Assembly: GCA_002733715.2 (NCBI GenBank)
Contig: NVWQ02000009.1
Location: 29,945-64,055, forward strand
Length of the DNA: 34,111 bases
Direction of reading: 5' to 3'
Source of the DNA: Methylophaga sp.
GTDB lineage: Bacteria; Pseudomonadota; Gammaproteobacteria; Nitrosococcales; Methylophagaceae
In this document: in pieces, positions 2,218 through 34,111 of the stretch
How the letters are laid out: every line of letters starts with the position of its first letter
Numbering within the stretch: the first letter of the stretch is position 1
Notes under the pieces: model-generated
Seen by the model: the letters and a program-made list of their open reading frames with translations, nothing else
The model's database searches: none
What the model was told of the DNA's origin: nothing
Translations under genes and position numbers: made by a program

Positions 2218-4497
2218 TTATTCTGGCAGGCTATTTCGCAAAATTAGACTGGCAGTGACCATGGCGGTTAATGCCGGTTTAACCTCTTTCCAGCCACGTG
2301 TTTTCAAACCGCAATCAGGGTTGACCCATAAGCGCTCAGCGGGAATGCGTTGTGATGCTTTTTTCATTAGCAATACAATTTGTTCTACCGTGGGGATATT
2401 CGGTGAGTGAATATCATATACGCCCGGTCCAATTTCATTGGGATAGTCGAACTCTTTAAACACATCGAGCAATTCCATATCAGAGCGTGAAGTTTCAATG
2501 GTGATCACGTCGGCATCCATATCGGCAATGGCCTCGATGATATCGTTAAACTCGGAGTAACACATATGAGTATGGATCTGCGTTTCATCACTGACACCGT
2601 TGGCACTAATTTTATAGCTGTTCACCGCCCAATCTAGATACGCCTGCCATTGTGATTGACGTAGCGGCAATCCTTCTCGTAATGCGGCCTCGTCAATTTG
2701 AATAATGCTGATACCCGCTTGTTCTAGATCTTGCACTTCATCTCGTATCGCTAAGGCTATTTGCTGACAGGTTTGTGAACGTGGTTGGTCATCACGCACA
2801 AATGACCAGTTTAGAATGGTTACGGGACCGGTGAGCATGCCTTTTACGGGTTTATCACTTAATGATTGTGCATAGACAGCCCAGTCTACTGTCATCGGTT
2901 TAGGACGTGAAATATCACCATAAATGATAGGTGGTTTTACACAGCGAGAACCATATGATTGTACCCAGCCAAATTGACTAAAGGCATAACCATCGAGTTG
3001 TTGACCGAAATATTCGACCATGTCGTTACGCTCGGCTTCGCCGTGCACTAATACATCTAACCCGATAACTTCTTGTTGTTCAATGGCATATTTAATTTCA
3101 TTCTTAATAAATTGTTGATAGTCGCTTTCTTCAAGCTTGCCTAAGCGGTAGCGTTTTCGAGCTTGGCGTATTTCTGCTGTTTGAGGGAATGAACCTATTG
3201 TGGTGGTAGGAAATAACGGTAAATTAAAGCGCTGTTGTTGTACTTTGGCTCTTTGTTGATAAGTGCTTTGTCGGTTGGCTAGTGCAGGCTCAATGGCTTT
3301 GACGCGTGCTTTTACTTTTGAATTATGCACGCGAGAAGAGTTTTGGCGTGATTGAAGCGCAAAGGCATTTAATACTAGTTCTTCGGCCACGGCTTCACGA
3401 CCTTCATTAAGAGCGGCAGCTAATATCGAGAGTTCATCTAATTTTTGAACTGCAAATGCAAGCCAAGATTGGATTTCATCATCGAGCTCATTTTCGCTAT
3501 CAAGATCGACAGGCACATGAAGTAAGGAGCATGAAGGTGCCAACCATAAGCGAACTTTTAAGCGGGCTTGTAATGGCTCTAACCAATCTAAAGTGGCATT
3601 GAGGTCTGTTTTCCAGATATTACGACCATTAATTACGCCTAGCGATAGAACCTTATGGGGTGCCAACCAGTCCACTACGTTTGTGACTTCGGTGAAAGCA
3701 TTAATGGCATCAATATGCAGACCTGCAACTGGCAGTTCACAAGCAAGGTGTAAATTTTCTTTTAGCTCACCAAAATAGCTAGTTAGTAGTAATTTAACGG
3801 GTGCTTTGTTCAGGGCGAAATAGGCTTGCTTAAGCGCGTGTTGCCACTGCTGATCAAGTTCGGTCACTAAAATGGGTTCATCAATTTGTACCCACTCGAT
3901 GCCTTCTTTATCTAGTGCTAGCAACAGTTGTTCGTAAGTTGCAACCAAGTCATCAAGCAGGTCGAGTTTATTGCTGCCGTCTTTGCTTTTCCCAAGCCAT
4001 AAATAACTGACGGGACCCACAATAACCGGCTTAACCTTAATGCCTTGTTGTTTGGCTTCGCTTATTTGTGATAACAAGCGCGAAGCATGAAGTGAAAAAG
4101 ATGTATCAGCATCAAACTCGGGCACGATGTAATGATAGTTAGTATCAAACCATTTAGTCATTTCACCAGCAGAAATATGTTGGCAGGCACTTTCTGATTG
4201 AGATTGACCGCGTGCAACTTGGAAGTATTTATCTAAATCATTAGCCTGATCATTAACCCGGGAGGGAAAGTTACCCAACAAAGCTGAGGCATCTAATACA
4301 TGGTCATAGAAAGAGAAATCTCCTACAGGCAAATAATCCAGTTGGTTTTGTGCTTGCCAGTGAGTTTGTCGCAATGTTTGCCCGGTTTGTTGTAAAGCTT
4401 GTTGTGATGAGTCGCCTCGCCAAAAAGATTCTAATGCAAATTTGAGCTCTCGGTTTTTGCCAATTCTAGGAAAGCCGAGATTATGAGTGGTTGCCAT
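2218..4497 (-). CDS. metE: Cobalamin-independent methionine synthase MetE
   Basis: MetE transfers the methyl group of 5-methyltetrahydropteroyl-triglutamate to homocysteine, the last step of methionine synthesis, in the cytoplasm. The start is set at the ATG giving [19 protein letters not shown], the family N-terminus; an in-frame ORF reaches 50 codons further but would cross the metR start. At 759 residues it matches the usual length of about 755. The zinc-binding C-terminal half is intact: HTHMCYSEF supplies His and Cys, and NPDCGLKTR the second Cys. The gene is divergent from metR, its expected activator, with 97 bp between start codons. Very confident. Confidence 0.97.
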
Positions 4498-8654: not shown

Positions 8655-10199
8655 TTATTTTAGTGTAACCAGTAAATGATTGCCCATTTCCGCAGGAATA
8701 GGCTGATCAATTAATGACAAAATGGTGGGCGCAATATCAGCCAATGAGCCAGATTCTATTTGCGCCACTTCACGGCCGGCATAAATAAGAGGGACAGGAT
8801 TGCTAGTATGTGCAGTATGTGGTTGCCCGGTTTCTTTGTTGCGCATTAATTCCGCGTTACCATGATCCGCGGTAACAATCATCTCGCCACCATTTTGTTT
8901 TAGGGCTGACCATACGCGACCTAGGCAATTATCCAAAACTTCGACGGCCTTGATTGCGGCTTCATAATCACCACTATGGCCGACCATATCTGCATTTGCA
9001 AAGTTGCAAATAATGACATCATATTTATTGGATTGGATGGCTTTAATAAGTTCACTGGATATTTCTGATGCGCTCATTGCAGGCTGCTGATCATAGGTAG
9101 AAACTTTGGGCGAAGGAATTAAGATACGATCTTCTCCTTCAAAAGGTTCATCCCGGCCACCATTAAAGAAAAAGGTAACATGTGCGTACTTTTCAGTTTC
9201 AGCAATACGTAATTGACGCAAACCAAGTGAAGAAAGGTGCTCGCCGAGAACATTGTTTAATTTTTCTGAAGGGAAAGCAACAGGCGTCGCAAAATCTTCT
9301 TTATACTCTGTTAAGGTAACAAACTCTGCCAATTTAATGGTTCGGGGCCGTTCAAAGCTCTCAAAATCAGCTTCAATAAAGCTTTTTGTTAATTCACGGG
9401 CACGATCACTGCGAAAGTTCATAAATACGACAACGTCATCATCGTTAATTTTAACGGCTTTTTCGCCATCAGCAATGATGCTAGTCGCTTTTACAAATTC
9501 ATCGGTTTCGTCACGTTGGTAGGCCATGTCTAATGCGGCAAGTGCAGATGATGCTTGATATTCCCCATCCCCTTCTGTCAGAAGGCGATACGCTTTTTCT
9601 ACTCGGCTCCAGCGCTGATCGCGATCTAAAGCATAATAACGACCAATAATTGAGGCAAATTGGCCGCCACCCAATTCTTCAAATTTTGTTTCCATTGCCG
9701 CAAGAGAAGCATGAGCGCTTTTTGGCGGTGAGTCACGCCCATCAAGAAAAGCATGAAGATAAACATTGTTTGCACCACGTCGTACAGCGAGCTCGATCAT
9801 TGCATGAATATGATCTTCGTGACTGTGAACACCGCCAGGGGATAGCAAGCCAAAAATATGAACCGCCGCGTCTTTTTCTACGGCAAGATCGACCGATTTA
9901 GTTAAGGTGTTGTTGGTAAAAAATGAACCTGTGCGGATTGCGCGCGTGACGCGCGTAAACTCTTGGTAAACAACGCGACCAGCCCCCATATTTAGATGGC
10001 CTACTTCGGAATTGCCCATTTGTGTGCCAGGCAGGCCAACGCCAGCACCAGAGGCGGTGATGAGAGTGTGAGGGTAATCTTGCCAGAGATGATCCCATAC
10101 AGGTGTGTTTGCAGCAACAATCGCATTATAATAGGAATCTTCACTATAACCCCAGCCGTCTAAAATAATTAGCGCAAGCGGGCGGTGAGGGTGACTCAT
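8655..10199 (-). CDS. gpmI: 2,3-bisphosphoglycerate-independent phosphoglycerate mutase
   Basis: A 514-residue cytoplasmic glycolytic enzyme that interconverts 3- and 2-phosphoglycerate with two manganese ions and a phosphoserine intermediate. Visible are the first metal motif LIILDGWGYSE, the catalytic serine in MGNSEVGHLNMGAGR (about residue 64), the long insert domain beginning near GVHSHEDHIHA, and the C-terminal metal motifs NFANADMVGHSG and VTADHGNAE. The start is MSHPHRPLAL, with AAGGA seven bases upstream; the longer ORF adds 13 unsupported codons. First gene of the minus-strand operon with envC, ctpA and the DJ-1 gene. Confidence 0.97.
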   Translation of the reverse strand: MSHPHRPLALIILDGWGYSEDSYYNAIVAANTPVWDHLWQDYPHTLITASGAGVGLPGTQMGNSEVGHLNMGAGRVVYQEFTRVTRAIRTGSFFTNNTLTKSVDLAVEKDAAVHIFGLLSPGGVHSHEDHIHAMIELAVRRGANNVYLHAFLDGRDSPPKSAHASLAAMETKFEELGGGQFASIIGRYYALDRDQRWSRVEKAYRLLTEGDGEYQASSALAALDMAYQRDETDEFVKATSIIADGEKAVKINDDDVVVFMNFRSDRARELTKSFIEADFESFERPRTIKLAEFVTLTEYKEDFATPVAFPSEKLNNVLGEHLSSLGLRQLRIAETEKYAHVTFFFNGGRDEPFEGEDRILIPSPKVSTYDQQPAMSASEISSELIKAIQSNKYDVIICNFANADMVGHSGDYEAAIKAVEVLDNCLGRVWSALKQNGGEMIVTADHGNAELMRNKETGQPHTAHTSNPVPLIYAGREVAQIESGSLADIAPTILSLIDQPIPAEMGNHLLVTLK

Positions 10200-13886: not shown

Positions 13887-15044
13887 CTATAGGGTGTAAC
13901 GTCGGTCAGCTAGTTGGCAGCGAGAAAGTAATTGCTCAAGGTTTTTGCTCAAGGTGAGCACTTTAAAGCTTTCCCCCATTGCAGAAGGCAGTGTAAGTTG
14001 TTTAATTTCAGTTGCCTGTTGCAGCATTGTGAGCTCATCACGTTTTCCCGCGTCATACAGCTCTGCTATACCGCCGGCAAGTAAGAAGTCAGCCTGTGAT
14101 TGAAAGCCTGTAACTTCAAGGTTATTGTCAATGGCTGCTTGTGCTAATAGTGTGAAATCTACATGAGAGGTGATGTCTTGCAAGCCTTGCAAAATAAGCG
14201 GATCAGCATGACCTTGATGTTGGAAATAACACATTAATGTGCCTTCACTACGCTGTGGGTGATAGTAGTCTGCTTTTGGATAGCCATAATCACAAATAAA
14301 TATAGCGCCCTGTTGCAGGCCATCAGCAATACTACACAACCATGACTCAGCTGCTAAATTTACTTCAGTAATATAATCGTCATCATTGATTAGCGTTTGA
14401 ATTTCAGTTGCATGAGAAGTTAGAGCAGCTTGAGACAATTCATCGTCACACCATTGTAAGCTAGCCTCATTGTGCTCAACATAGCGCTCAAAAACTCCAC
14501 CCTGTTTGAAATGTAGCAAATGTATCGGCATGGCAACACATACTTCATTTGCCAGCACAACGCCGGAAAAGTTAGCGGGGAAAGACGCTAGCCAGACTAC
14601 TTTATCTGCAAGGTCGGGAATAAGTCTAGATATAGTGTTACACTGCCTTTCACGTAAGTCAGCACTTACTTCAATAATGTAATACTTCTCTGGAAGAAGG
14701 TTGAGGGAGGCAAGCTCTAATAAAATATCGGCTGCCATTTTACCACTGCCAGCGCCAAACTCTATGATAGAGGGCTGTTCCAGCTGAACTAATACATCTT
14801 TAATATGATGCGCAAAGGTGCGAGAAAATAAAGATGAAATTTCGGGTGCGGTAGTGAAATCACCATGCCGTCCTAGTTTTTGACTGCCCGCACTGTAATA
14901 CCCTAAGCCGGGAGCATAAAGGCATAGGTGCATATATTCGGCGAAAGTAATCTTGCCGCCAGCACGATCTATTTCGTCATAGATTAACGATAACAATTGC
15001 TTGCTATGCTGTTGTGCAATACTATCTGGCTTAGGTAATGTCAC
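13887..15044 (-). CDS. MidA/NDUFAF7-type SAM-dependent methyltransferase
   Basis: A 385-residue member of COG1565. The eukaryotic relative NDUFAF7 methylates an arginine of a complex I subunit. The N-terminal ITFAEYMHLCLYAPGLGYYS, the motif GRHGDFTTAPEISSLF and the SAM-binding IIEFGAGSGKMAADIL (about residues 93-108) are diagnostic. Where family members usually read NEVLDALP, this protein has NEVCVAMP, so an acidic residue commonly seen there is missing. The start is GTG without a clear Shine-Dalgarno sequence. It stands alone, convergent to the lipoprotein operon. Family is firm; the bacterial substrate is unknown. Confidence 0.85.
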   Translation of the reverse strand: MTLPKPDSIAQQHSKQLLSLIYDEIDRAGGKITFAEYMHLCLYAPGLGYYSAGSQKLGRHGDFTTAPEISSLFSRTFAHHIKDVLVQLEQPSIIEFGAGSGKMAADILLELASLNLLPEKYYIIEVSADLRERQCNTISRLIPDLADKVVWLASFPANFSGVVLANEVCVAMPIHLLHFKQGGVFERYVEHNEASLQWCDDELSQAALTSHATEIQTLINDDDYITEVNLAAESWLCSIADGLQQGAIFICDYGYPKADYYHPQRSEGTLMCYFQHQGHADPLILQGLQDITSHVDFTLLAQAAIDNNLEVTGFQSQADFLLAGGIAELYDAGKRDELTMLQQATEIKQLTLPSAMGESFKVLTLSKNLEQLLSRCQLADRRYTL

Positions 15045-15090
15045 TTATTTATTGGCCTGAATGCTGGATAAGAGAATTTAGTTTATTTTT

Positions 15091-15170
15091 CGTCATCCTC
15101 GCGCATGCGGGGATCCATGGGCTGTTCAAATACCCACTATCGTTGGATTCTCGCGTTCGCGGGAATGACC
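15091..15170. repeat. GTCAT...ATGAC palindromic intergenic repeat
   Basis: Outer ends CGTCATCCTCGCG and CGCGGGAATGACC are inverted copies with minor differences, around a centre holding GCATGC and GGATCC-type palindromes. It is a dispersed-repeat type common between gammaproteobacterial genes and lies between the methyltransferase gene and folM. Confidence 0.55.
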
Positions 15171-24331: not shown

Positions 24332-24408
24332 GGGCCTGTAGCTCAGCTGGTTAGAGCAGGGGACTCATAATCCCTTTGTCCGGGGTTCAAGTCCCTGCAG
24401 GCCCACCA
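24332..24408 (+). tRNA. tRNA with CAU anticodon, probably tRNA-Ile2
   Basis: A 77-nt cloverleaf with a perfect GGGCCTG/CAGGCCC acceptor stem, D-loop GCTCAGCTGGTTAGAGC, anticodon loop CTCATAA, T-loop GTTCAAG and encoded CCA. CAU can be elongator Met or lysidine-modified Ile2. The strong resemblance of the anticodon and variable arms to E. coli ileX, and the place right behind rpoD as for ileX, favour Ile2. The integrase gene 3' of it suggests that this tRNA end served as the integration site. Confidence 0.93.
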
Positions 24409-24516: not shown

Positions 24517-25608
24517 ATGGCAACATTAGTTAAGACACCATCAGGGACATGGAAAGCAGTCATACGAAAGACAGGTTTTCCAACATCAGCAAAAACATTT
24601 AGAACCAAGCGAGACGCAGAAGACTGGTCTAGGCGTACCGAAGATGAAATGGTTAGAGGTGTTTATATCCAACGAGGCTCCGCAGAGCGAATGACTGTTG
24701 CTGTAGCGCTTAAACGCTATTTAGCTGAAGTATCCCCAACTAAACGACCATCATCGGCTGCAAGTGATATTCGCCGCTCAAAATCATTAATACAGTCTCT
24801 AGGTAAATATTCTCTGGCAGCATTAACTCCAGAAATTATTGCTAAATATCGTGATGAGCGTCTAGCCGGTCTGGATAGAAAAGACTTTAATGGTAAGTCG
24901 TCTCCTAAGCCTCGTTCAGCTAATACTGTACGGCTTGATTTAGCATTGCTAGGACATCTGTTCAATGTAGCGATTAAAGAGTGGGGAATAGGTCTGGCAA
25001 TCAATCCTGTTCAAAGTATACGCCGACCAGCTCCTGGTGCTGGGCGTGAACGGCGACTTAGCCTAGAGGAAGAAAGGCGCTTATTTGTTGCTGTTGATAG
25101 TCATTCGAATCCCATGCTTGGCTGGATTGTCCGTATCGCATTACAAACAGGTATGAGATCGTCTGAAATAACAACATTACGCATAGGCCAAGTTGATCTT
25201 GAACGTAGAGTTGTAAGGCTTGTTGATACAAAAAATACCCAGCCTCGCACGGTACCCTTAACTAATATTGCGACAGAAATTTTCAATCAAGCAATTGATA
25301 ACCCGACCCGGCCAACGGAAACAAACCTTATTTTCTTTGGTGAACCAGGAAAAGACGGTCAACGTCGAGCCTATAATTTCAATAAGATATGGATAAAAAG
25401 TAAGGAAAAAATTGGATTAAAAGATCTGCGTTTTCATGATCTTCGTCATGAAGCGGTAAGCCGCCTTGTTGAGGCTGGATTAAGCGATCAAAAAGTAGCC
25501 GCCATCAGTGGGCATAAATCTATGCAAATGTTGCAACGATATACTCACCTTAGGGCTGAAGATCTAGTTGAAGAATTGGATGCGATTTCAGCACGAAGAG
25601 AAGATTAG
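24517..25608 (+). CDS. Tyrosine recombinase/integrase of a tRNA-targeting element
   Basis: A 363-residue site-specific recombinase with the full catalytic set: Arg214 (TGMRSSE), His307 and Arg310 (FHDLRHE), His333 (SGHKS) and the nucleophile Tyr342 (LQRYTHL). The N-terminus (TWKAVIRKTGFPTSAKTFRT) is an arm-binding-type domain and residues about 60-160 form the core-binding domain. The gene starts 108 bp after the tRNA and points away from it. This is the integrase of the following mobilizable element. It is not an integron integrase: the extra IntI helix motif is not apparent and it is far from the attC sites. Confidence 0.93.
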   Translation: MATLVKTPSGTWKAVIRKTGFPTSAKTFRTKRDAEDWSRRTEDEMVRGVYIQRGSAERMTVAVALKRYLAEVSPTKRPSSAASDIRRSKSLIQSLGKYSLAALTPEIIAKYRDERLAGLDRKDFNGKSSPKPRSANTVRLDLALLGHLFNVAIKEWGIGLAINPVQSIRRPAPGAGRERRLSLEEERRLFVAVDSHSNPMLGWIVRIALQTGMRSSEITTLRIGQVDLERRVVRLVDTKNTQPRTVPLTNIATEIFNQAIDNPTRPTETNLIFFGEPGKDGQRRAYNFNKIWIKSKEKIGLKDLRFHDLRHEAVSRLVEAGLSDQKVAAISGHKSMQMLQRYTHLRAEDLVEELDAISARRED

Positions 25609-25699: not shown

Positions 25700-27025
25700 T
25701 TAAAAGGAAATTTCTTCGTAAGATATTTTACCTGAAGGGTAAAGAGTAATATAGCTTTCATCTTCTGCACCGTAGCTTCTAAAATTTTTCAGTAAGCTAT
25801 CCATTACTTCTTTTTCTGTGAGGTCAGATATTTTATATAAGCTAATATAAAACTCTCGTAGCTCTTTTAATAATTGTGGAATATCTATCCTTAAGTGTTG
25901 AAGCTCATTTTCGTCTGCAAACCCATATGATGAACTGTTAATTATATTTTCAAACAACTCGGTTAAAACATATGGTGGATTGTTAATAAAATAAGCACCA
26001 GGGATAGGATCAAACTTTATACCAAGCGCCTTTTTCTTAGCTACAATGTTTTGTTTATGTTTCTGACGTTTTATCCGATTTTCATACGACCAACAGTCGT
26101 TATAATAATATTCATCCACGAGGAAAAACAGCTTCAATATGCTTGTCCCAACATCATCATTTTGAATGAAAGTCACCCTTCCAGCTTGCTTAGAGACAAG
26201 AAAATGAGCACAGTTTAATACGGACAAAAAATCTAAAAAAAGATCATGCTTATAGTTTGAGTCATCATCAGCACCTAAACACAGGAGACAAAACATATAA
26301 GGTACTATTGATAACGGGTTCCCCTCTTGGTACATATTGGAAATGCCTTCAGGAATAAGGCTGTCTACATAAGAGGCGGGACCAAGGCTAAGATCGTATT
26401 TTATCTTAGCTTTAATCTTACATTCAGCCAAAAAAGCTGCATTAGACTCTGGCATGAACATTTCGGCTGTTACGTGTTGCTCTATATCGTATCCATTACG
26501 TTTTTTAGGACCACTAATTTTTAAACGATTAGATCTTTTAGGTTTCCAGTCCTCTATAATTTTATCAATAATAGAAGATGCTTCATTATGGGCATAATTA
26601 CTGTCCTTGCTATCGATATAATGTAAGTCTAAGGTCGCAAGATGTAGCTGAAAACGATTAGAAAAATTGCAGCGGTCAAACCATTTAGCAGCAAGGTTAG
26701 GGAAAGCTTTTTCAATATCAACTTGTTTTTTTGGCTCAGGAATTGATTTTCCGTGCCACCAATCACTGAGCCTAGATTTCGATATAAATTCATCAGAGGT
26801 TTTAGACTTACCGTTAATTTTATATGAAAAGTCTACTTCCGCCTTGAACATCGCCTCATTTAATGCATCAATATATTTACGATATTCCTGCTTTTTAAGG
26901 TTTACTCGGTCTTCGTCAGGAAATAATAGAACCTTTAATTCGCGGGCGAATGATTTCGCTCTGAACTCTTGTGTCGGGAAAGGTTTATTTCGCTTTTTTT
27001 TTGCAATAATTCTATTGTACATCAT
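25700..27025 (-). CDS. Unknown protein of the integrative element
   Basis: A 441-residue protein that I do not recognise. The N-terminus is very basic (KKKRNK). A stretch at about residues 78-112 (SKSRLSDWWHGKSIPEPKKQ) has the look of an HTH DNA-binding segment, a weak inference. The rest is mixed alpha/beta with no membrane helix and no catalytic motif that I can name. It is transcribed against the integrase and against the replication/mobilization genes, with a 117-bp divergent spacer to the HTH gene at 27143. Possible roles are regulator or cargo such as a defence protein. AT-rich codon use matches the neighbouring element genes. Confidence 0.6.
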   Translation of the reverse strand: MMYNRIIAKKKRNKPFPTQEFRAKSFARELKVLLFPDEDRVNLKKQEYRKYIDALNEAMFKAEVDFSYKINGKSKTSDEFISKSRLSDWWHGKSIPEPKKQVDIEKAFPNLAAKWFDRCNFSNRFQLHLATLDLHYIDSKDSNYAHNEASSIIDKIIEDWKPKRSNRLKISGPKKRNGYDIEQHVTAEMFMPESNAAFLAECKIKAKIKYDLSLGPASYVDSLIPEGISNMYQEGNPLSIVPYMFCLLCLGADDDSNYKHDLFLDFLSVLNCAHFLVSKQAGRVTFIQNDDVGTSILKLFFLVDEYYYNDCWSYENRIKRQKHKQNIVAKKKALGIKFDPIPGAYFINNPPYVLTELFENIINSSSYGFADENELQHLRIDIPQLLKELREFYISLYKISDLTEKEVMDSLLKNFRSYGAEDESYITLYPSGKISYEEISF

Positions 27026-27142: not shown

Positions 27143-27373
27143 ATGAAAACCACGATTAATTTATTGCAAGAAAAATATGGTCCATTAATGACGCTAGAGG
27201 CATTAGCAGAGACGCTAAACCGATCAAGCGAAGGGTTGAGGGTATCACTGCGTATCCGGTCAGACTTATCAACAGTTATTAACTTAACTAAACGAAAACT
27301 AGGCCGACGTATTTATTTCAAAACGGAGGGTATCGCCAAGATAATTGATGGTGAGGTGACAAGCAATGAATAG
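27143..27373 (+). CDS. Small HTH-like protein of the element
   Basis: A 76-residue protein. MTLEALAETLNRSSEGLRVSL followed by a basic GRRIYFKTEG wing resembles a small winged-helix or AlpA-like DNA-binding domain that reads as a helix-turn-helix with a short beta wing. It has a good ribosome site and overlaps the next gene by eight bases. Likely a regulator or accessory to replication of the element; inference only. Confidence 0.55.
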   Translation: MKTTINLLQEKYGPLMTLEALAETLNRSSEGLRVSLRIRSDLSTVINLTKRKLGRRIYFKTEGIAKIIDGEVTSNE

Positions 27374-28172
27374 GAATAAATCGACCACTATTTTCAGAAT
27401 TGAAAAATCAAATAATTACACTCAAATTCATCGCTTCATTGCTGAGGATGATCGCCTTAGCTGGGAAGCAAGAGGCCTCCTCATATTTTTGCTGGTTAAG
27501 CCTGATGATTGGATCGTAATTTTTACCCACTTAATAAATAGTAGCCCAGCTGGAAAAGATAAAGTGCGGCGGATAATACAAGAGTTAATTAAGTATAACT
27601 ATATTGTTAAAAATCAGGTCAGATCTGAACATGGGCGATTTTCCTCTCCTGAATATATCGTATATGAATTACCCTATGATGGGTATTTTGATTCCTTAAT
27701 AAATGAAGCAATAAAAATAAAGGCTGAAAAGACCGTGTCGGTAAAACCGACACGTGATTTACCGGCACGTGTAAATCCTCCACTACTAAATATACAAACA
27801 ATACCAAGTAAACAAATAACTAATAAAACAACTACAACAACAGAAAAGTTTATTTGGTCGCACAAGCTCAGCAGTAAACACCAAGCATCCATAACATCTT
27901 TGATATCTCAGATTGATCATGAGCCTGCCCAGCTATTGCTCGATGAGCTTTCAGGTCAAATTGACAATATCAATAATCCCGTTGGCTATTTTCGAACCCT
28001 GCTTAAAAGCTATCTTGCTGGTGACTTCATTCCCGCTAAAGCAATCCAAATGCAAACTGAGCGTGAAGCTAGGCATAAAAATGAGCTTGCAGTAGCACGA
28101 TCAAACCAATTAGCCGAAGAAAGAATTCAACGTCAAATCGAAGAGCAAAGGAGAGCTAACCATGAAAATTAA
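27366..28172 (+). CDS. Replication-initiator-like winged-helix protein
   Basis: A 268-residue protein. The first about 110 residues have the pattern of phage/plasmid replication proteins with an N-terminal winged helix: YTQIHRFIAEDDRLSWEARG, LLIFLLVKPDDWIV, GKDKVRRIIQELIKYNYI. The middle is a low-complexity linker rich in threonine (TTTTTE), and the end is a charged helix rich in arginine and glutamate. GAGGTG precedes the ATG. It overlaps the coupling-protein gene by 11 bp, so the four element genes are one transcript. An origin-binding role, possibly in the excised circle, is inference. Confidence 0.6.
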   Translation: MNRNKSTTIFRIEKSNNYTQIHRFIAEDDRLSWEARGLLIFLLVKPDDWIVIFTHLINSSPAGKDKVRRIIQELIKYNYIVKNQVRSEHGRFSSPEYIVYELPYDGYFDSLINEAIKIKAEKTVSVKPTRDLPARVNPPLLNIQTIPSKQITNKTTTTTEKFIWSHKLSSKHQASITSLISQIDHEPAQLLLDELSGQIDNINNPVGYFRTLLKSYLAGDFIPAKAIQMQTEREARHKNELAVARSNQLAEERIQRQIEEQRRANHEN

Positions 28173-29910
28173 TCAATTACTGAGCTTTCTGGAATATTAC
28201 ATCGATCTAGGATTTTACCATTGGGTAACAACCGTCTTTAGTTTCTGGTGGATATTTGGAATAATCGGTGGATGGTTTTTTATTTTGTCAGTATTCACAA
28301 AGAATAAGAATAGAGGTCTAGCTACGCTCTTTTTTGTGATTGCCGTACTCACCATTATTGCCCAACCAATACTGTATATATTCTTACCTGAATGGTCACA
28401 AGCACTCTGGCAAAAAACGTATGCCTTACCTATCAAGCATCTCTATGCCTATGCCAGTGGATTTGTTATTTCAGGCATTTCTGCCTTCTTCTTTTACAGA
28501 AAAGCAGCATCATGGTTTGATGGTGTGAAAGATAAATTTCATAAAACCACATCGTTAAAACGTGATACCAATACCGATATCAGAAACCTTGAAGATATCC
28601 TACCCAAACAAAGAGCAGCTTATAAGGTTGAAAAATATTTCAAACAAAACCAAATGTTTATTGGAAAATCTGCAAATAAGGAACCTATATTTATTCCACG
28701 TGATAAATGGCTATCAAGCCATATCGATTTAGTAGGCACCACAGGTTCAGGAAAAGGCGTTGCCGCAGGTGTGATGCTTACACAAGCAGCATTGCTAGGT
28801 GAAGCTGTTATCGTAATTGATCCCAAAGAAGATGAATACTTGCCTCATGTATTAGGACAAGCAGCCAATGATGCACAAGTACCGTTTTATCATATCGACC
28901 TAACAGGTGAATCTGGACAATGGAACCCTATACTAAACAAATCACCTATGCAGATAGAAGAAGTACTCGGTGCAGCTTTTGGCCTATCTGAAAAAGGCAC
29001 AGATGCAGACTTCTACCGATTGAATGACAGAAAAGCAGCTCGTTTATTTTCAACCACTAAGACAGAAAGCAATAGCTTTCCCGAACAAGCAGTTCAGTTC
29101 TTTAGTGAAAATAACGAAGCTTTAGAAAATGCCCCCAAGTTTAAAGATGATCTTGAAGAAGTTGCTTCACTACCCGTAGTGAATATCAATGGTGGATTAG
29201 ATCTTGATAAAGCCATCAAAGATGGTGCAGTGATTTACGTACGTGGATCAATGCGTAATCCTCGTATACTAAAACTACAAAGAATGTTTGTATTAGCCGT
29301 TATCCAATCTTGTGAAAGCAGAAACAGGGAAGGAGCCCGACATGTCTGTATTTTCCTAGATGAGTTTAAATACCTGATTAGCCGACCTACTTTAGAAGCA
29401 TTAGGTGCTATTAGAGATAAGCATGCACATGTCATCTTAGCGCATCAAAGCTTAGGCGATCTAAAAGACTGCCCCAATGATATTAATCCTGATTCAGTCG
29501 TATCATCAATCAATGAAAACTGTTCAATCAAACTCACCTATAAAGTAAACGATCCTGACACGGCTGATTGGCTAGCTAGAATGAGTGGCAAAATACAAGT
29601 TGATCAGGAATCTCGACGCTTTGACACCAATACCGCACTAACCGAATTAAAAACATCAGAAAGAACATTAAGGCAAGCTGAGCGCTGTTTAATTGATACC
29701 AATATGCTGCAATCCTTACCTTCAGGCTGTGCAGTATTGTTTGGCAATGGACTAGCTGACTTTGTATTTACATCACCTATCAGCGTAACCAAGCAATCAA
29801 AATGGCTACAACCGACTCAATTTACTTCAGATAGCGTAGAAAAACATCAAGACAGTTCAACACCCACAAACTCAAAAACCTTCAGTGAAGGATTACTGGA
29901 TGTTGATTAG
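28162..29910 (+). CDS. Type IV coupling protein (VirD4/TraD-like ATPase)
   Basis: A 582-residue ATPase that should link a relaxase-DNA complex to a conjugation channel. Membrane segments lie at about residues 24-45, 53-75 and 95-113. Walker A is GTTGSGKG (192-199), VIVIDPKEDEYLPHVLG follows, Walker B is VCIFLDEF (395-402), and HVILAHQS is the downstream motif of TraG/TraD proteins. AGGAG stands eight bases before the ATG. It is followed with overlap by a small PD-(D/E)xK-like protein, the same pairing as MobB-MobC of CloDF13. No other conjugation genes are in the window, so the element would depend on a helper. Confidence 0.85.
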   Translation: MKINQLLSFLEYYIDLGFYHWVTTVFSFWWIFGIIGGWFFILSVFTKNKNRGLATLFFVIAVLTIIAQPILYIFLPEWSQALWQKTYALPIKHLYAYASGFVISGISAFFFYRKAASWFDGVKDKFHKTTSLKRDTNTDIRNLEDILPKQRAAYKVEKYFKQNQMFIGKSANKEPIFIPRDKWLSSHIDLVGTTGSGKGVAAGVMLTQAALLGEAVIVIDPKEDEYLPHVLGQAANDAQVPFYHIDLTGESGQWNPILNKSPMQIEEVLGAAFGLSEKGTDADFYRLNDRKAARLFSTTKTESNSFPEQAVQFFSENNEALENAPKFKDDLEEVASLPVVNINGGLDLDKAIKDGAVIYVRGSMRNPRILKLQRMFVLAVIQSCESRNREGARHVCIFLDEFKYLISRPTLEALGAIRDKHAHVILAHQSLGDLKDCPNDINPDSVVSSINENCSIKLTYKVNDPDTADWLARMSGKIQVDQESRRFDTNTALTELKTSERTLRQAERCLIDTNMLQSLPSGCAVLFGNGLADFVFTSPISVTKQSKWLQPTQFTSDSVEKHQDSSTPTNSKTFSEGLLDVD

Positions 29911-30631
29911 TAACTATCAAGAAAGGCAACAGCGAACGGCAGACAAACAACAACGCCTACTCACGCTGTTAAGAGATGAAACATGGAGTGCAGCACCCAT
30001 GATGGCACAATGGCTTAACCTGTCCATCTCAGCGACATACAAAACCTTATCAAGGCTTGAACAACAGCACTTAATAAAGGTTTACTATGTAGAAGACCTA
30101 AAATACAAAATATGGGGCATTACCCCAGATGGATTATTAATGGCATGGCAACAAGATGAAGTCATGCAGAACAGGCCTTATTTTCAACCATCAAAAATAA
30201 AGCCAGTGATGATGCAACATCATCTTGATTTACAACAAGCCAGACTCAATGCAGAACAAGCAGGCTGGCAAAACTGGTATTTGGGAAGTCTATTACCCAG
30301 ACAAATTGGCAAACGACCTGATGCCATTGTCACCAGTTTAAATGAACAAATAATTGCAGTAGAACTAGAAAGAACCGTTAAAACTAAAAAGCGTTATGAA
30401 GCGATTTTTTCTTATTACTTACAAGCTATCAAACAAGGGCAATATCAGAGTGTGCATTATGTTTGCCCATCCCCAGAATTTGCCACTCGCCTTAAACGAC
30501 TTTTTAACTTAATTGAATCCGTTCCCGTGGCAGGCGAACGTGTAAAAATACAAGACAAGCATCGACAAAAACTGCCTGTTTTTAGCTTAAATAATTGGCC
30601 ACCAAAGCCTGAAAAACATTTGATCCGATGA
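29900..30631 (+). CDS. Candidate MOBC-type relaxase
   Basis: A 243-residue protein. The N-terminus (about residues 15-80) is a winged helix (APMMAQWLNLSISATYKTLS, then RLEQQHLIKVYY). The C-terminal half has a nuclease-like core: RPDAIV with Asp141, a strand, then AVELERTVKTKKRY with Glu155, Glu157 and lysines, the arrangement of a PD-(D/E)xK site. This fits the replication-relaxation/MOBC relaxase type, which has a restriction-endonuclease-like fold instead of a HUH fold. I chose ATG 29900, with GAAGGA seven bases upstream; a GTG at 29885 is possible. Nicking activity is inference from fold pattern and gene order. Confidence 0.65.
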   Translation: MLISNYQERQQRTADKQQRLLTLLRDETWSAAPMMAQWLNLSISATYKTLSRLEQQHLIKVYYVEDLKYKIWGITPDGLLMAWQQDEVMQNRPYFQPSKIKPVMMQHHLDLQQARLNAEQAGWQNWYLGSLLPRQIGKRPDAIVTSLNEQIIAVELERTVKTKKRYEAIFSYYLQAIKQGQYQSVHYVCPSPEFATRLKRLFNLIESVPVAGERVKIQDKHRQKLPVFSLNNWPPKPEKHLIR

Positions 30632-30676: not shown

Positions 30677-30702
30677 CCCCCATGTTATTCATCTATTGGG
30701 GG
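30677..30702. repeat. Inverted repeat after the relaxase gene
   Basis: CCCCCA and TGGGGG enclose 14 bases, 45 bp past the relaxase stop codon. Inverted repeats of this kind occur at transfer origins close to mobilization genes, so it is a place to look for oriT. A weak terminator is the alternative, but no T-run follows. Confidence 0.35.
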
Positions 30703-30758
30703 ATAAGGAAGAAGCTCGCCAATGATAAATAAACTCATATTATTGCTAGGGCACTAAT

Positions 30759-30860
30759 ATGAAAAAGGAGCCATCCTCTTGTCTTTATAATCGTGCTGAA
30801 CGCCCGATGAAAAGCCAATTCACCTCACAGCACTTCCCTGAACGTCCAGTACTTGGTTAA
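30759..30860 (+). CDS. Possible 33-residue ORF
   Basis: ATG to TAA, with MKKEPSSCLYNRAERPMKSQ at the N-terminus. A weak TAGGG lies about 10 bases before the ATG. The stop codon lies directly before GGCTAACGCCC, just as cassette genes end at an R'' box. There is no further support for translation. Confidence 0.25.
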   Translation: MKKEPSSCLYNRAERPMKSQFTSQHFPERPVLG

Positions 30861-31252
30861 GGCTAACGCCCTCTTTTATAAACTGCAGCACTGAACATGC
30901 TGCACATTATAAAATTCACCCGTTCGTCGTCTCCGCTGGCGCTCGACTCCCGATGTTACTGGTTGCAAAAGCACTTATCTAGCGATAAATTCTTTTTTAC
31001 CCCTGCGGGTTTCGCTGAACGCTTCACATCAACCTCGGGAGTCGAGCGCCAGCTAGGGCTGCCTTCGACGACGAACACAAGCAACGCATCAAATGTTCTA
31101 GGGAACATTCAATACTTGTCAGCGCTTGGGCGCTGCCATGCTTGTAGGTTGCCCTCTGAACGAGGACAATTCTGCACGCTAAGGCGCACAGAACAGAGCC
31201 GATAATTTTTACGCTGGGGCGTAAATTTATCTTCCCTGACTGGAGTCAGGGA
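30856..31252. repeat. Array of short tetraloop hairpins
   Basis: At least ten small hairpins: GTTA-AGGC-TAAC (30856), TGCAGCA / TGCTGCA (30884), TTATC-TAGC-GATAA (30975), ACCC-CTGC-GGGT (30999), CAGC-TAGG-GCTG (31050), AATGTTC-TAGG-GAACATT (31092), CAGCGC-TTGG-GCGCTG (31120), CCTC / GAGG (31153), CGC-TAAG-GCG with outer TCTG/CAGA (31171), TTTACGC-TGGG-GCGTAAA (31208) and TCCCTGAC-TGGA-GTCAGGGA (31233). Many loops follow T-N-R-G. Stem sequences differ, so this is repeated structure rather than repeated sequence. Confidence 0.75.
30922..31076. repeat. Long-range inverted repeat, 10 + 19 bp
   Basis: 30935-30953 pairs perfectly with TCGGGAGTCGAGCGCCAGC at 31035-31053, and GTTCGTCGTC (30922-30931) pairs perfectly with 31067-31076. 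The intervening loop of about 80 bases holds two of the small hairpins. As RNA or single-stranded DNA this would form one large branched structure. Confidence 0.75.
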
Positions 31253-31314
31253 TTCTGCGAAAACTCAGGCTCTTTTCGCTTCGCTCAGTTTGGCCCACAA
31301 TTTTTAGCCTGTTA

Positions 31315-31328
31315 ATTGGGCGTTATGT
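31315..31328 (+). repeat. attC R'-type end
   Basis: AATTGGGCGTTATG has the form of the 3' end of an attC site, with the G-TT crossover at 31322-31323. Its GGGCGTT is complementary to AACGCCC at 30865-30871, but the distance of about 450 bp is far beyond a normal attC. It may be a truncated site or one end of a giant structured site. Confidence 0.45.
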
Positions 31329-31336
31329 TTAAAAAA

Positions 31337-31765
31337 TTAAGTTAAGCGAGACAGAATATTATTACAAACACTTATTAGTTGTTTCTGTTCATTGGAGCTT
31401 AGTTTAATTCTACATTCCATATCTTCAAATATATGTGATGTTTTATCCCTCAAGCTCTTACCCAGTTTAGTTAGTTTAATTACTTTAGCTCTTTTATCTA
31501 AATGTGACAGATTAATTTGGATATACTTCTTATTTTTTAGCCTTTTCAAAATTGCAGTCAATGTGGCTGCATCAAGAAGAATTTTCTTGGTTAGTTCCTT
31601 GATAGAAACAGAGTCCTTATTCCACAAGCTCATCATCACTAAGAACTGAGGATATGTAAGTTTAAATTCATCTAGTTGAGGTCTGTACTCACGGATCATT
31701 GCATTGGATGTTGAATACAGAGAAAAGCAAACCATTTTTGTAAAATTAAAAGATTGTGTTGTCAA
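31337..31765 (-). CDS. OhrR-like MarR-family regulator
   Basis: A 142-residue MarR-family repressor. The N-terminus MVCFSLYSTSNAMIREYRPQ with Cys13 and the following LTYPQFLVMMSLW match OhrR, whose N-terminal cysteine is oxidised by organic hydroperoxides. The winged helix is SIKELTKKILLDAATLTAIL and the wing holds LDKRAKVIKLT. The usual partner ohr is absent; instead a cupin and an arylesterase gene are divergent from it. Peroxide sensing is inferred from the cysteine and the subfamily pattern. The gene runs against the cassette direction of its neighbours. Confidence 0.85.
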   Translation of the reverse strand: MTTQSFNFTKMVCFSLYSTSNAMIREYRPQLDEFKLTYPQFLVMMSLWNKDSVSIKELTKKILLDAATLTAILKRLKNKKYIQINLSHLDKRAKVIKLTKLGKSLRDKTSHIFEDMECRIKLSSNEQKQLISVCNNILSRLT

Positions 31766-31813
31766 AATAGACTCCTAAATAGTGGCAATAAATATATTAT
31801 GCACACAAAGTAG

Positions 31814-31857
31814 TTGACGCGCCAGGTCTGGTCTTGTATGTTTGATTTGCGCGCAAA
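31814..31857 (+). promoter_or_regulatory. Promoter and palindromic operator of the cupin gene
   Basis: TTGACG (31814-31819) and TATGTT (31837-31842), spaced by 17 bp, form a good sigma-70 promoter. The perfect palindrome TTTGCGCGCAAA (31846-31857) covers the expected transcription start. This is where a repressor such as the divergent OhrR-like protein would bind. Confidence 0.6.
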
Positions 31858-31876
31858 CTAAATATAGGGGCTTTAT

Positions 31877-32203
31877 ATGAAAGAAGAACTAAATTTTAAA
31901 GGGATTACCTCAAAAAATTGGAAAAAAATACAAGGTAATAAATTCGCAGAAGGTATATCAGAACGTACTGTTTGGGAAGGTGGAAATGGGAAAAAAGCAA
32001 TTATTTTTGAGTTCAGCCCTGGTTCAAAATTTCCAGGAATTGATAAACACGAAACAGGTCCAGAGCAAATATACGTGATTTCAGGTATATTCAACGATGG
32101 TAGAGATGATCATCGTGAAGGAACCTTCATCAATAATCCCATTGGTACTTCACACATACCACAATCATCACATGGTTGTGTGGTTATGCTTTATAATTCG
32201 TGA
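31877..32203 (+). CDS. ChrR-like cupin-domain protein
   Basis: A 108-residue single-domain cupin. Potential metal ligands are His58 and Glu63 in KHETGPEQIYVISG, and His93 in GTSHIP; EGTFINNPIGTSHIPQSSHG is the second cupin motif. Similar domains occur in ChrR-type anti-sigma factors and small stress-linked cupins. AGGGG is the ribosome site. Its stop codon TGA is followed at once by the ATG of the arylesterase gene, so the two are coupled. Substrate unknown. Confidence 0.75.
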   Translation: MKEELNFKGITSKNWKKIQGNKFAEGISERTVWEGGNGKKAIIFEFSPGSKFPGIDKHETGPEQIYVISGIFNDGRDDHREGTFINNPIGTSHIPQSSHGCVVMLYNS

Positions 32204-32857
32204 ATGGCAAACAACATAAAGCAAATTCTCGTGTATTCGGATTCCCTTACTTGGGGAATTATCCCCAATACAAGAAAACGGCTACCTTTTGAAAAAAGAT
32301 GGACTGGAGTTTTTGAAAGTGCTCTAAATACAAGAGGCAATAATGTTCGTGTTATCGAGAATTGTCTCAATGGCAGGAGGACAGTATGGAGCGATCCATA
32401 TAAAGAAGGTCGGGATGGCTCGCAAAGTTTAGCGCAAGTTATTGAAATGAACTCACCGTTAAAACTAGTCATTTTGATGCTAGGTACAAATGATTTTCAG
32501 TGTACACATGAAAATAATGCATGGCTATCAGCTCAAGGTACAGTAAAATTGATTAATATTATTCGTCAAGCACCCATTGAACCTGGGATGTTAGTGCCGG
32601 AAATAATGATTATAGCGCCACCAAAAATTATTAAGCCAAAGGGTGTTATTTCCAATAAATTTAAAGATTCTGAAAACAGGTCAAAAGGTTTAGCGGAAGA
32701 GCTTGAAAAAATTGCTAAAGAAAATTCGGTTTATTATTTTGATGCAGGAAGTGTTACTGAAGCAAGTAAAGTAGATGGTATTCATTTAGATGACGAACAA
32801 CACAAAAAGCTTGGTGAGGCTATATCTAATGCAGTATCAAATAGCACACCCTTTTAA
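32204..32857 (+). CDS. SGNH hydrolase, arylesterase/perhydrolase-like
   Basis: A 217-residue cytoplasmic SGNH hydrolase (no signal peptide). The four blocks are visible: Ser14 in YSDSLTWG (a variant of GDSL with Ser for Gly), NGRRT near residue 57 for the Gly block, LMLGTND with Asn96, and DGIHL with Asp191 and His194. The sequence resembles octameric mycobacterial arylesterase, a type known for perhydrolase activity. It is coupled to the cupin gene and under the promoter facing an OhrR-like regulator, which suggests a link to peroxides or peracids (inference). Confidence 0.82.
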   Translation: MANNIKQILVYSDSLTWGIIPNTRKRLPFEKRWTGVFESALNTRGNNVRVIENCLNGRRTVWSDPYKEGRDGSQSLAQVIEMNSPLKLVILMLGTNDFQCTHENNAWLSAQGTVKLINIIRQAPIEPGMLVPEIMIIAPPKIIKPKGVISNKFKDSENRSKGLAEELEKIAKENSVYYFDAGSVTEASKVDGIHLDDEQHKKLGEAISNAVSNSTPF

Positions 32858-32878
32858 CAAATTACTTTCAGTTGACCG
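32850..32878 (+). repeat. Possible decayed attC half-site
   Basis: TTTTAACAAATTACTTTCAG followed by TTGACCG resembles the R''-L'' half at 33853-33880 (GTATAACAATC... with the same TTGACCGT) and again overlaps a stop codon. No matching R' half exists before the GNAT gene 7 bp on, so the site is at best a remnant. Confidence 0.3.
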
Positions 32879-32884
32879 TAAAAA

Positions 32885-33328
32885 ATGACAAGTATTAGAA
32901 ATACCCATTTCAAAGAATTAAAAAACATATATGAAATGGGTTACCAAAGTCATATCGGTGAGTTTCTAAGTATTAAATCACTTGAAACACACGAGATTGA
33001 TTTTAAAAAGGACAGTGTTATTTATCTAAGCATAATAAGCACATCTGGCCTACTTGCAGGTTACATTATTCTTTGTAAAGAAAAACAATCAAAAACAGTG
33101 CAGTTGAAGAGAATACTAATTGATGAAAAATATCTAGGGAAAGGTCAAGAAGCAATGATTTCTTTAGAAAGTCACTGTATTAGAGAATTAAAGAGCAATC
33201 ATATATGGCTAGATGTATATAAAACAAATTCAAAAGCAATATATGTTTATGAGAAGCTAGGCTATAAAAAGTTTAAACAAAATATACAAAACTCAAAATT
33301 AGTACTGTTTTATGAAAAAAAGCTATAA
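32885..33328 (+). CDS. GNAT N-acetyltransferase
   Basis: A 147-residue GNAT-family protein. The acetyl-CoA pyrophosphate loop is LKRILIDEKYLGKGQEAMIS (about residues 73-92, a weak Q/RxxGxG/A version), and the C-terminal part WLDVYKTNSKAIYVYEKLGY is the standard fourth motif. The acceptor cannot be predicted. The stop codon lies inside the attC R'' box at 33322-33329, so this is a cassette gene. Low GC compared with the core genes. Confidence 0.85.
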   Translation: MTSIRNTHFKELKNIYEMGYQSHIGEFLSIKSLETHEIDFKKDSVIYLSIISTSGLLAGYIILCKEKQSKTVQLKRILIDEKYLGKGQEAMISLESHCIRELKSNHIWLDVYKTNSKAIYVYEKLGYKKFKQNIQNSKLVLFYEKKL

Positions 33329-33371
33329 CAATTGCTTGCACGCTGACTGCCGGTGAAGCAGGCGTTATACG
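33322..33371 (+). repeat. attC site, short and well formed
   Basis: R'' GCTATAAC pairs with R' GTTATA of GCGTTATAC (33362-33370). The inner boxes TGCTTGCA and TGAAGCA pair except for one unpaired G, the extrahelical base expected in attC sites. The top loop is small. The next cassette begins at the crossover G-TTATACGC, whose complement CGTATAAC is that cassette's own R'' box (33853-33860). This agreement makes the site convincing. Confidence 0.8.
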
Positions 33372-33391
33372 CTACAAGGATTAAGCATCAT

Positions 33392-33859
33392 ATGAAATAC
33401 AAGATCATCGATAATTCACAATCTGAAGAAATAGCTAAACTTGCGGTGTGTCTTACTAATGAAATTATTGAGCGTACTGGAATAAAGCACTTTGATGTTG
33501 ATGTGCCATTAGCCTTAAGTTTATGCCAAACTTATGTTTCTAATGGTCTATATAATGTAATTGCGGCTTTTGACGAAAATAAAATAATTGGGTTTGGTGC
33601 TTTATGTGAAAGTCATTCACTATACGCTGAAGGTTCATTTGGTATTATCCAAGAGTTTTATGTTATGCCTAATTATAGATCTCAAGATATAGGCAGAGAG
33701 CTTATTAATGAAATCGTTAATTTTGCTAAAAATAAGCAATGGAAAAGGCTAGAATTGTGTACGCCACCTCTACCTGAATTTGATCGAACAGTGAAATTTT
33801 ATCAAGCGAATGGTTTTGAGATCACAGGTGGTTATAAAATGAAGTATGCAATCGTATAA
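33392..33859 (+). CDS. GNAT N-acetyltransferase (cassette gene)
   Basis: A 155-residue GNAT protein. IIQEFYVMPNYRSQDIGREL is motif A with the R/QxxGxG/A-type loop (RSQDIG), and WKRLELCTPPLPEFDRTVKF followed by YQANGFEITGGYKMKY is the C-terminal part. The start is the ATG giving MKYKIIDNSQ; the longer frame begins at a GTG inside the attC site. AAGGA lies upstream. The stop codon falls in the R'' box of the next attC. Acceptor unknown; a resistance role would be speculation. Confidence 0.87.
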   Translation: MKYKIIDNSQSEEIAKLAVCLTNEIIERTGIKHFDVDVPLALSLCQTYVSNGLYNVIAAFDENKIIGFGALCESHSLYAEGSFGIIQEFYVMPNYRSQDIGRELINEIVNFAKNKQWKRLELCTPPLPEFDRTVKFYQANGFEITGGYKMKYAIV

Positions 33860-33880
33860 CAATCAAATCCACTTGACCGT
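33853..33880 (+). repeat. attC 5' half, interrupted by an insertion sequence
   Basis: CGTATAACAATC is an R'' box matching the start of the same cassette (GTTATACGC). It continues as AAATCCACTTGACCG and then passes into the IS3-like end, so the right half of the site is missing. Confidence 0.6.
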
Positions 33881-33983
33881 GATCATCCCCCGTTAAAGTA
33901 GACACCAAAATCTAACAACAAAGATGAGGTGTAATATGCCAAGGTATAATAATTCACGAAAAACATGGCGCTATTCGGATGAG
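33880..33983 (+). mobile_element. Left end of an IS3-family-like insertion sequence
   Basis: An IS3-type end (TGATCATCCCCC, then GTTAAAGTAGACACC) is followed by GAGGTG and the start of an OrfA transposase. The exact outer boundary is uncertain by a few bases. After 48 coding bases the element is broken by another insertion. Confidence 0.6.
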
Positions 33984-34004
33984 TGCGTATTCTTACGAAC
34001 GTGA
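33936..34004 (+). pseudogene. IS3-type OrfA transposase, N-terminal fragment
   Basis: The first 16 codons read MPRYNNSRKTWRYSDE, a typical start of IS3-family OrfA (HTH) proteins. The frame then enters foreign sequence (CVFLRT) and stops at 34004. The remainder should lie beyond the second insertion if that element is complete. Confidence 0.65.
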
Positions 34005-34111
34005 ACACCCAATCTTATGATCGTGAACACCTAACAAACCAGACATTGGGCTTGGCGTATTTTTACACTAAGTGTTCACGATCAGTCAAGTTATCGCTTG
34101 TAATTTCCGCA
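33984..34111 (+). mobile_element. Left end of an IS21-like insertion, cut by window edge
   Basis: TGCGTATTCTTACG begins right at the break in the transposase gene. It has two direct repeats of the type TCTTA(C/T)GA(A/T)CGTGAACACC (33991 and 34013) and an inverted GTGTTCACGATCA (about 34069-34081). Repeated terminal blocks with GTGAACAC are typical for IS21-family ends. No transposase is reached before the window ends. Confidence 0.5.

Follow-up and report, generated by a model that had tools for sequence, protein, structure and literature searches.

A non-coding array of hairpins in a chromosomal contig of the gammaproteobacterium Methylophaga sp. lies beside the mobilization genes mobB and mobC, and its structure is conserved in MOBC elements of several bacterial families. 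The array occupies positions 30,716 to 31,258 of the window, i.e. the whole stretch of 34,111 nucleotides that was analysed, and its motifs are read on the minus strand; homology and covariation with two further occurrences, together with its folding energy, support it. Judged from its sequence and its neighbours, it is probably the oriT (transfer-origin) region of an integrative mobilizable element of MOBC type, on which it would act in cis. The original prediction had recognized a genuine array but placed it at 30,856–31,328, whereas hairpins of the same kind continue to the left of that interval (30,735–30,762 and a block at 30,764–30,926), where our limit is approximate. On the right, since the array of the window and that of a related gammaproteobacterial genome (G406) both end at the common motif ATTCTGC, the boundary is set near 31,258, the end of the homology with G406.

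The mobilization module that adjoins the array consists of a MobC-family relaxase gene and a coupling protein gene of its own. MobC (29,885–30,631, plus strand), annotated as a replication-relaxation protein of the MOBC relaxase family, matches the NCBIfam model NF041423 (MobC_subf) at E 2.1e-71 and 240 bits, above the cut-off of 200, and shares 41.6% identity with a Klebsiella plasmid MobC, while a Pfam search with it was without match; the adjoining mobB encodes a MobB-like type IV coupling protein (28,162–29,910, plus strand; Pfam T4SS-DNA_transf, E 1.5e-16). The array follows directly, in the order mobB-mobC-array. Further upstream lie an ORF of the element resembling a replication protein (27,366–28,172, plus strand), whose match to the NCBIfam STY4528_fam is weak and below cut-off (E 3e-4), and a tyrosine integrase (24,517–25,608, plus strand; Pfam Phage_integrase) that adjoins a tRNA-Met predicted by ARAGORN at 24,332–24,408. 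With its integrase next to tRNA-Met, the element is probably an integrative mobilizable element; a repeat of the tRNA end, which would mark its right end, was searched for within the window and not found. Between the integrase and the replication-like gene there is also a 441-residue ORF (25,700–27,025, minus strand) that matches nothing in Pfam or NCBIfam.

Read on the minus strand, the loops of the array follow two formulas, C[NYNA]G and C[GTTCA]G, and the hairpins that bear them are arranged around two long-range stems. The series opens with a hairpin at 30,735–30,762 (loop C[CCTA]G), whose stem CATATTA/TAATATG is compensated in a second copy of the array as CATGGTA/TACCATG. The module on which covariance model R1 was built follows at 30,764–30,926, with three GTTCA-pentaloop hairpins, a repeated linker GGTGAATT and a conserved ACTGGACGTTCAGGGA; it includes a small local hairpin at 30,860–30,872, earlier supposed to be the R'' of an attC site, and a GTTCA-loop hairpin at 30,874–30,914 whose stem is rebuilt with other bases in each relative. 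The outer long-range stem pairs 30,922–30,931 with 31,067–31,076 over 10 bp and has covarying counterparts in an enterobacterial alignment (A7), and the inner stem pairs 30,935–30,957 with 31,031–31,053 over 23 bp at 96% complementarity, so that the long-range inverted repeat first noticed by inspection is real. To the right stand hairpins at 31,092–31,109 (loop C[CCTA]G), 31,120–31,135 (C[CCAA]G; GATTACGCTAGGGCGTAATC in G406), 31,153–31,165 (C[GTTCA]G), 31,170–31,193 (C[CTTA]G, with G-T pairs on the minus strand), 31,201–31,231 (C[CCCA]G) and 31,233–31,252 (C[TCCA]G), the last of the array; all are drawn on the minus strand. The many short perfect hairpins that had been described are thus present, with plus-strand loops TAGC, TAGG, TTGG, TAAG, TGGG, TGGA and TGAAC.

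Neither the density of these hairpins nor their loops are typical of the surrounding DNA. Counting only stems of 5 bp or longer, there are 8.9 tetraloop hairpins per kb in 30,700–31,262 (5 hairpins) against 1.9 per kb in positions 1–30,600 (58 hairpins); across 11 arrays the loop is NYNA in 26 of 39 such hairpins, with closing pairs mostly C-G and some G-C, against 8 of 58 on the plus strand and 5 on the minus strand in the control region 1–30,600. Among the pentaloops of the same 11 arrays 6 of 27 read GTYCA, but as the arrays were oriented by this very motif only the NYNA count is independent of orientation. The comparison with shuffled sequence that had been proposed, on both strands, gave a result far beyond chance: against dinucleotide shuffles, 30,856–31,328 reached z -8.6 (RNA, plus), -10.0 (DNA, plus), -15.7 (DNA, minus) and -13.7 (RNA, minus), the minus strand being the best-folding strand, and in each of these four tests none of 100 shuffles folded as well. 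A GC-corrected scan in 200-nt tiles likewise found the best tile of the window inside the array (30,901, z -4.5), and the array of G406 reached z -9.2 on both strands with 20 shuffles.

The comparison with close relatives reveals that it is the structure rather than the sequence that has been kept. A second copy in the source genome (locus L006, at a contig end; also found in genome G017 as L009) is 88% identical to the array of the window and has its start within a leftover of the mobC end; in both genomes the same IS-like sequence cuts it off at the identical base. At this place (L006 9390–9970; L009 1–540) the decayed element end lies beside a gene for a PQQ-dependent dehydrogenase. In G406 (locus L028), whose MobC is 61% identical and whose mobB is truncated, the same array stands right behind mobC; loops and linkers are conserved, stems differ, the outer long-range stem is kept and the inner one is not, only its arm at 31,031–31,053 being conserved there in sequence. 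Within the A4 block (163 columns, three sequences) each sequence forms the GTTCA-loop hairpin from different base pairs. The suggestion that selection acts on structure, with variable stems and conserved loops, is confirmed by the homologues, whose stems covary; a covariance model was built from them, as had been recommended. Behind the G406 array, at L028 10020–10200, two long palindromes between two ORFs form the strongest folding tile of that locus.

This covariance model, R1, was derived from A4 with 37 pairs and run on 14 loci, on a 13-locus repeat, on 5 loci and on 19 loci. Beyond its sources and L009 it matches genome G244 (L032, E 1.1e-9), a 5.5-kb Klebsiella MOBC plasmid (L020, 2.2e-5) and CloDF13 (L042, 2.2e-6, at 9777–9887), with weak matches (E 0.4–1.2) to V. 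owensii pva2; a non-coding region adjoining the mob genes is in this manner common to the window and to CloDF13. In an R1-fitted alignment of 6 rows, which favours the model by construction, both partners have changed in 29 of 37 pairs and 92.9% of cells are paired, none of 500 shuffles reaches any of these measures, and slid controls give 37–55%. The reach of the model is nonetheless limited: it returned no match on the MobC-bearing loci L021, L029, L030, L031, L035, L036 and L038 and none on the set of 19 loci, of which 8 have arrays of the enterobacterial type and 11 do not, and in 369 genomes of the class, searched with stricter filters, only the source genome and G406 were reported at E 0.001, G244, presumably in the sample, not being reported. 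Searches by other routes were similarly sparse. MobC was found in only G406 among 54 genomes of its order; a profile search of genome contigs found nothing with a single MobC and two loci, one apparently the G406 contig, with alignment A2; viral contigs gave no match with MobC or with two DNA patterns; DNA similarity searches gave no array match between the window array and plasmids or between the L028 array and plasmids and phages; and the mobC DNA of L028 had none in E. coli genomes.

Arrays of the same architecture are widespread on plasmids. In MOBC plasmids of Enterobacterales and Vibrio, mobB is preceded by a long structured region: a BLAST search with the Buttiauxella region found 276 plasmid records, about half of the query being covered in most matches listed, and a 385-base Klebsiella core found 277, of which 261 match over at least 80% of the core. 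RNAalifold on 15 enterobacterial examples, several of them nearly identical, predicts 112 pairs, 45 with at least one change on both sides, including the outer (columns 232–240/407–416) and inner (288–310/374–397) long-range arms. The order, established by eye, is that of the window: NYNA-type hairpins, outer arm, inner arm, inner arm, outer arm, pentaloop hairpins. Because R1 misses all eight enterobacterial-type loci, along with L021, L038 and Spongiibacter, we infer common descent of the window-type and the enterobacterial/Vibrio arrays from architecture, loops and position. The Spongiibacter array is tied to that of the 5.5-kb Klebsiella plasmid by an 80-base BLAST match (83.8%), and in L030 (MobC 33% identical; a 2.1-Mb genome of another family) outer and inner arms are visible by eye at 3365–3535 on the minus strand, with GCGTAGCG between them. 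The remaining distant MobC loci L029, L031 and L035 are characterized by a fold-energy scan only, in addition to the R1 search that they failed to match. A finder of long inverted repeats picked up the outer arms of the G406 and CloDF13 arrays, but in V. owensii the repeat that it picked up was an unrelated one. The array of V. parahaemolyticus pLH214-1 is followed by a palindromic repeat (L021 3980–4060) similar to two long ones that stand beside the array in a 2.4-kb plasmid of E. ludwigii (L059 800–970).

The association of the array with the mob genes is close, although the arrangement varies. In a tblastn survey of 25 fetched loci with three MobB and four MobC queries MobB was found in 23, so that with the window 24 loci have both array and mobB; the array lies upstream of mobB in 22 of these and downstream of mobC in two, the window and G406, while in G244 it stands between divergent mobB and mobC. 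It is antisense to mobB in the window, G406, CloDF13, the 5.5-kb Klebsiella plasmid and Spongiibacter, and sense in G244 and the enterobacterial/Vibrio group; 13 enterobacterial stretches end inside mobB, which places mobC outside the view. In pMET-1 (NC_010726) the array occupies 14744–15141, just upstream of mobB. The CloDF13 record yielded no MobC with MobC queries from four sources, its MOBC status being taken from the literature, and no gene named mobB or mobC is annotated for it in PLSDB (L042, NC_002119), its MobB corresponding by tblastn to 'Mobilization protein A'.

Two small plasmids carry the array with neither mobB nor mobC detected by tblastn with the seven Mob queries. A K. pneumoniae plasmid of 4195 bp, for which a near-identical E. 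coli plasmid is listed, encodes Rep_1, TrbL/VirB6, an EexN-like protein and one unknown protein, and an E. ludwigii plasmid of 2398 bp has Rep_1 and a 79-residue ORF annotated. Both arrays are of the colinear enterobacterial type, and R1 is without match to them; that of E. ludwigii was identified through a 45-base BLAST match and through arms and loops visible by eye, and because it has diverged it is not a fresh fragment. Plasmids that carry only an oriT are a recognized class according to an excerpt of PMC11389934. The occurrence of the array on two mob-less plasmids points to a cis-acting site, and a cis-acting transfer site explains these plasmids best, an RNA gene doing so less well.

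Of the three readings originally offered for the array, a transfer-origin-like region is the one that these results support, a structured RNA survives as a rival and a giant recombination site is rejected. The original claim that no named element has this form does not hold for the region itself, which matches the putative oriT of the MOBC plasmids pMET1 and CloDF13, but it does hold for the covarying hairpin architecture, which is undescribed in the literature searched. In the portion of PMC2262945 consulted, the region upstream of mobB in pMET1 is presented as a putative oriT whose nic sites fall inside an inverted repeat, the order oriT-mobB-mobC is stated for CloDF13 as well, and pCRY, HPI-ECOR31 and ICEKp1 are named among MOBC plasmids and ICEs. 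The array resembles these oriT regions in lying beside mobB/mobC, in being non-coding and in containing inverted repeats; CloDF13 has an array that R1 matches, and pMET-1 has a colinear one. Unlike theirs, the array of the window is downstream of mobC and on a chromosomal contig.

If the array is an oriT region, one strand, once exposed by relaxation, by cruciform extrusion or as the transferred strand, would fold into a scaffold. Its long-range arms, once paired, would position the nick region, and the loops C[NYNA]G and C[GTYCA]G, repeated from hairpin to hairpin, would be putative sites at which MobC, the coupling protein MobB or both dock. A candidate nick neighbourhood, chosen by eye and by sequence conservation only, might lie between the inner and outer 3' arms, where GCGTAGCG stands in the enterobacterial, V. 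owensii, 5.5-kb Klebsiella and L030 arrays, being absent from the window, G406, G244 and CloDF13. MobB takes part in the relaxation of CloDF13, as stated in an excerpt of PMC7431656 citing Nunez and de la Cruz 2001. An excerpt of PMC12857230 describes MOBC relaxases as related to PD-(D/E)XK nucleases, with no covalent intermediate observed, and reports that TraX of pAD1, a Gram-positive MOBC relaxase, binds five direct repeats 70–120 bp from nic. Compared by description only, pAD1 and the element of the window have in common a MOBC relaxase and repeated units, which are direct repeats in the former and hairpin loops with unlike stems in the latter; by analogy, repeated binding units distant from nic would fit the array if hairpins had replaced the direct repeats.

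Several observations count against the oriT assignment. The side and orientation of the array relative to mobBC vary, R1 misses the enterobacterial type, the inner stem is lost and mobB truncated in G406, and no MobC was found in the CloDF13 record with our queries. Moreover, at about half a kilobase and with a dozen or more hairpins, the array is larger than an oriT usually has to be. A broader proposal, which we put forward tentatively and regard as possible rather than likely, is that MOBC transfer systems share a half-kilobase nucleic-acid scaffold, be it RNA or an exposed DNA strand, of a dozen or more hairpins with one loop alphabet (C[NYNA]G, C[GTYCA]G), which docks the nuclease-type relaxase. 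Were this the case, MOBC relaxation would be directed by recognition of structure and not of a short nick sequence.

The location of the MOBC origin has been proposed before and is not new; what appears to be new is a covarying, loop-conserved array that extends from CloDF13 to chromosomal elements and is carried by relaxase-less plasmids, the titles, abstract openings and best-matching passages of the literature searched holding nothing on a hairpin array in MOBC origins. The relaxases concerned, those of CloDF13 and pMET1, are described in an excerpt of PMC12857230 as poorly understood, non-canonical and restriction-enzyme-like. A searchable hairpin scaffold, present in CloDF13 and chromosomal elements and colinear in 277 BLAST-matched plasmid records, hence offers a handle on where and how MOBC transfer starts and a route to relaxase-less plasmids that ride on MOBC systems, and its stems are a clean set for compensatory-mutation tests of structure.

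The strongest alternative, which we consider unlikely though it deserves weight, is that the array encodes, on its minus strand, a large structured non-coding RNA on which MOBC mobilization would depend in the way SGI1 depends on its sgm-sRNA; the RNA gene might overlap oriT. Strong covariation and conserved loops speak for such an RNA, although covarying stems are also expected of folded single-stranded DNA, and the evidence on strand is suggestive only. In all 8 arrays compared the motif strand is the better-folding one, and raw minimum-free-energy wobble counts favour it in the window (19 vs 4), the second copy (23 vs 3) and G406 (18 vs 11), but they do not favour it in 6 of 8 arrays. A strand-neutral helix count gave 45 G-T against 17 A-C pairs (ratio expected from composition 0.75–1.39) in nine arrays, namely eight outside the enterobacterial BLAST group and that of V. 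parahaemolyticus, whereas ten enterobacterial arrays show no strand bias (22 vs 20) and a second neutral count, made on alignments, is mixed (188:111, 37:38, 21:7, 67:71). A consensus promoter scan of the minus strand of the window and of G406 found no promoter-like site, no Rfam family matches the array (mir-5391, at E 0.16, is far below cut-off and was taken as chance), and its carriage by small mob-less plasmids suits a cis site better. The precedent is SGI1, an integrative mobilizable element that, as an excerpt of PMC9299015 relates, encodes beside oriT an RNA needed for transfer, the sgm-sRNA, situated between mpsA and oriT; likened to the array by description only, SGI1 uses the tyrosine-recombinase-like MpsA/MpsB, unlike a MOBC element. 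An RNA of the CsrA-sponge type was considered on account of the GGA-like loops of the plus strand and dropped by eye, few loops holding GGA.

It is considerably less probable that the array serves replication or single-strand initiation, as an oriV, sso or ssi. Such sites typically contain hairpins, the element has a replication-like ORF and both mob-less plasmids encode a Rep_1 replication protein; on the other hand, the constant partner of the array is mobB, the replicon types differ (IncFII, IncFIB, ColRNAI, rep clusters) and the replication RNAI of CloDF13 maps elsewhere, at L042 770–872, apart from the array.

We give almost no credence to the idea that the array is a giant single-stranded recombination site resembling attC, or an attC split by an insertion. 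The attC sites of integrons are folded single strands used in DNA processing, as is here proposed for the array, and two facts speak for the idea: the outer arms do pair over 8 bp (TAACGCCC/GGGCGTTA), and a real attC half adjoins the array at 31,262–31,330 (plus strand). These arms, however, do not form one unit. The left arm is not conserved, being a local hairpin that reads GGGCGTTGCCC in G406 and GGTTGAAATCC in the second copy, and the right arm belongs to the 3' half of a separate, neighbouring attC-like site outside the array, which is why the reading fails. With a 491-base query, 7 of 95 related genomes match, yet the hairpins are matched only in the source genome (in two places) and in G017, while G002, G020, G025, G027 and G032 match only within query bases 411–486, over 29 to 59 bases each, in what we take, judging attC anatomy by eye, to be the 3' half of attC-like sites that can be seen complete in those genomes. 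Four plasmids also match this piece. Two of them were inspected: in one it lies between cassettes behind an annotated integron integrase, and in the other among small genes arranged in a row. The attC of the window lacks its 5' half, the end of the array being in its place, no R''/L''/L'/R' architecture bounds a single hairpin, and no attC is seen beyond the common motif at which the G406 array stops; membership in the attC class is refuted for the array.

An origin in chance palindromes, terminators or repeat debris, compatible with the position of the second copy in a decayed element end cut by IS-like sequence, is refuted by covariation across families and z values down to -15.7. A protein-coding array was also rejected, as the seven arrays examined have stops in every frame (1 to 13 per frame), and the homologues thus conserve no protein frame in place of the stems; the 102-codon frame of the window aligns only partly in two relatives, and gaps in the DNA alignment break it. 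To the right of the array, the attC half is followed by cassette-like genes (MarR, cupin, GDSL and two GNAT) up to the end of the window, which is also the end of the contig, and no integron integrase is found in the window; the half attC and these genes, at 31,262–34,111, lie inside or beside the mobile element.
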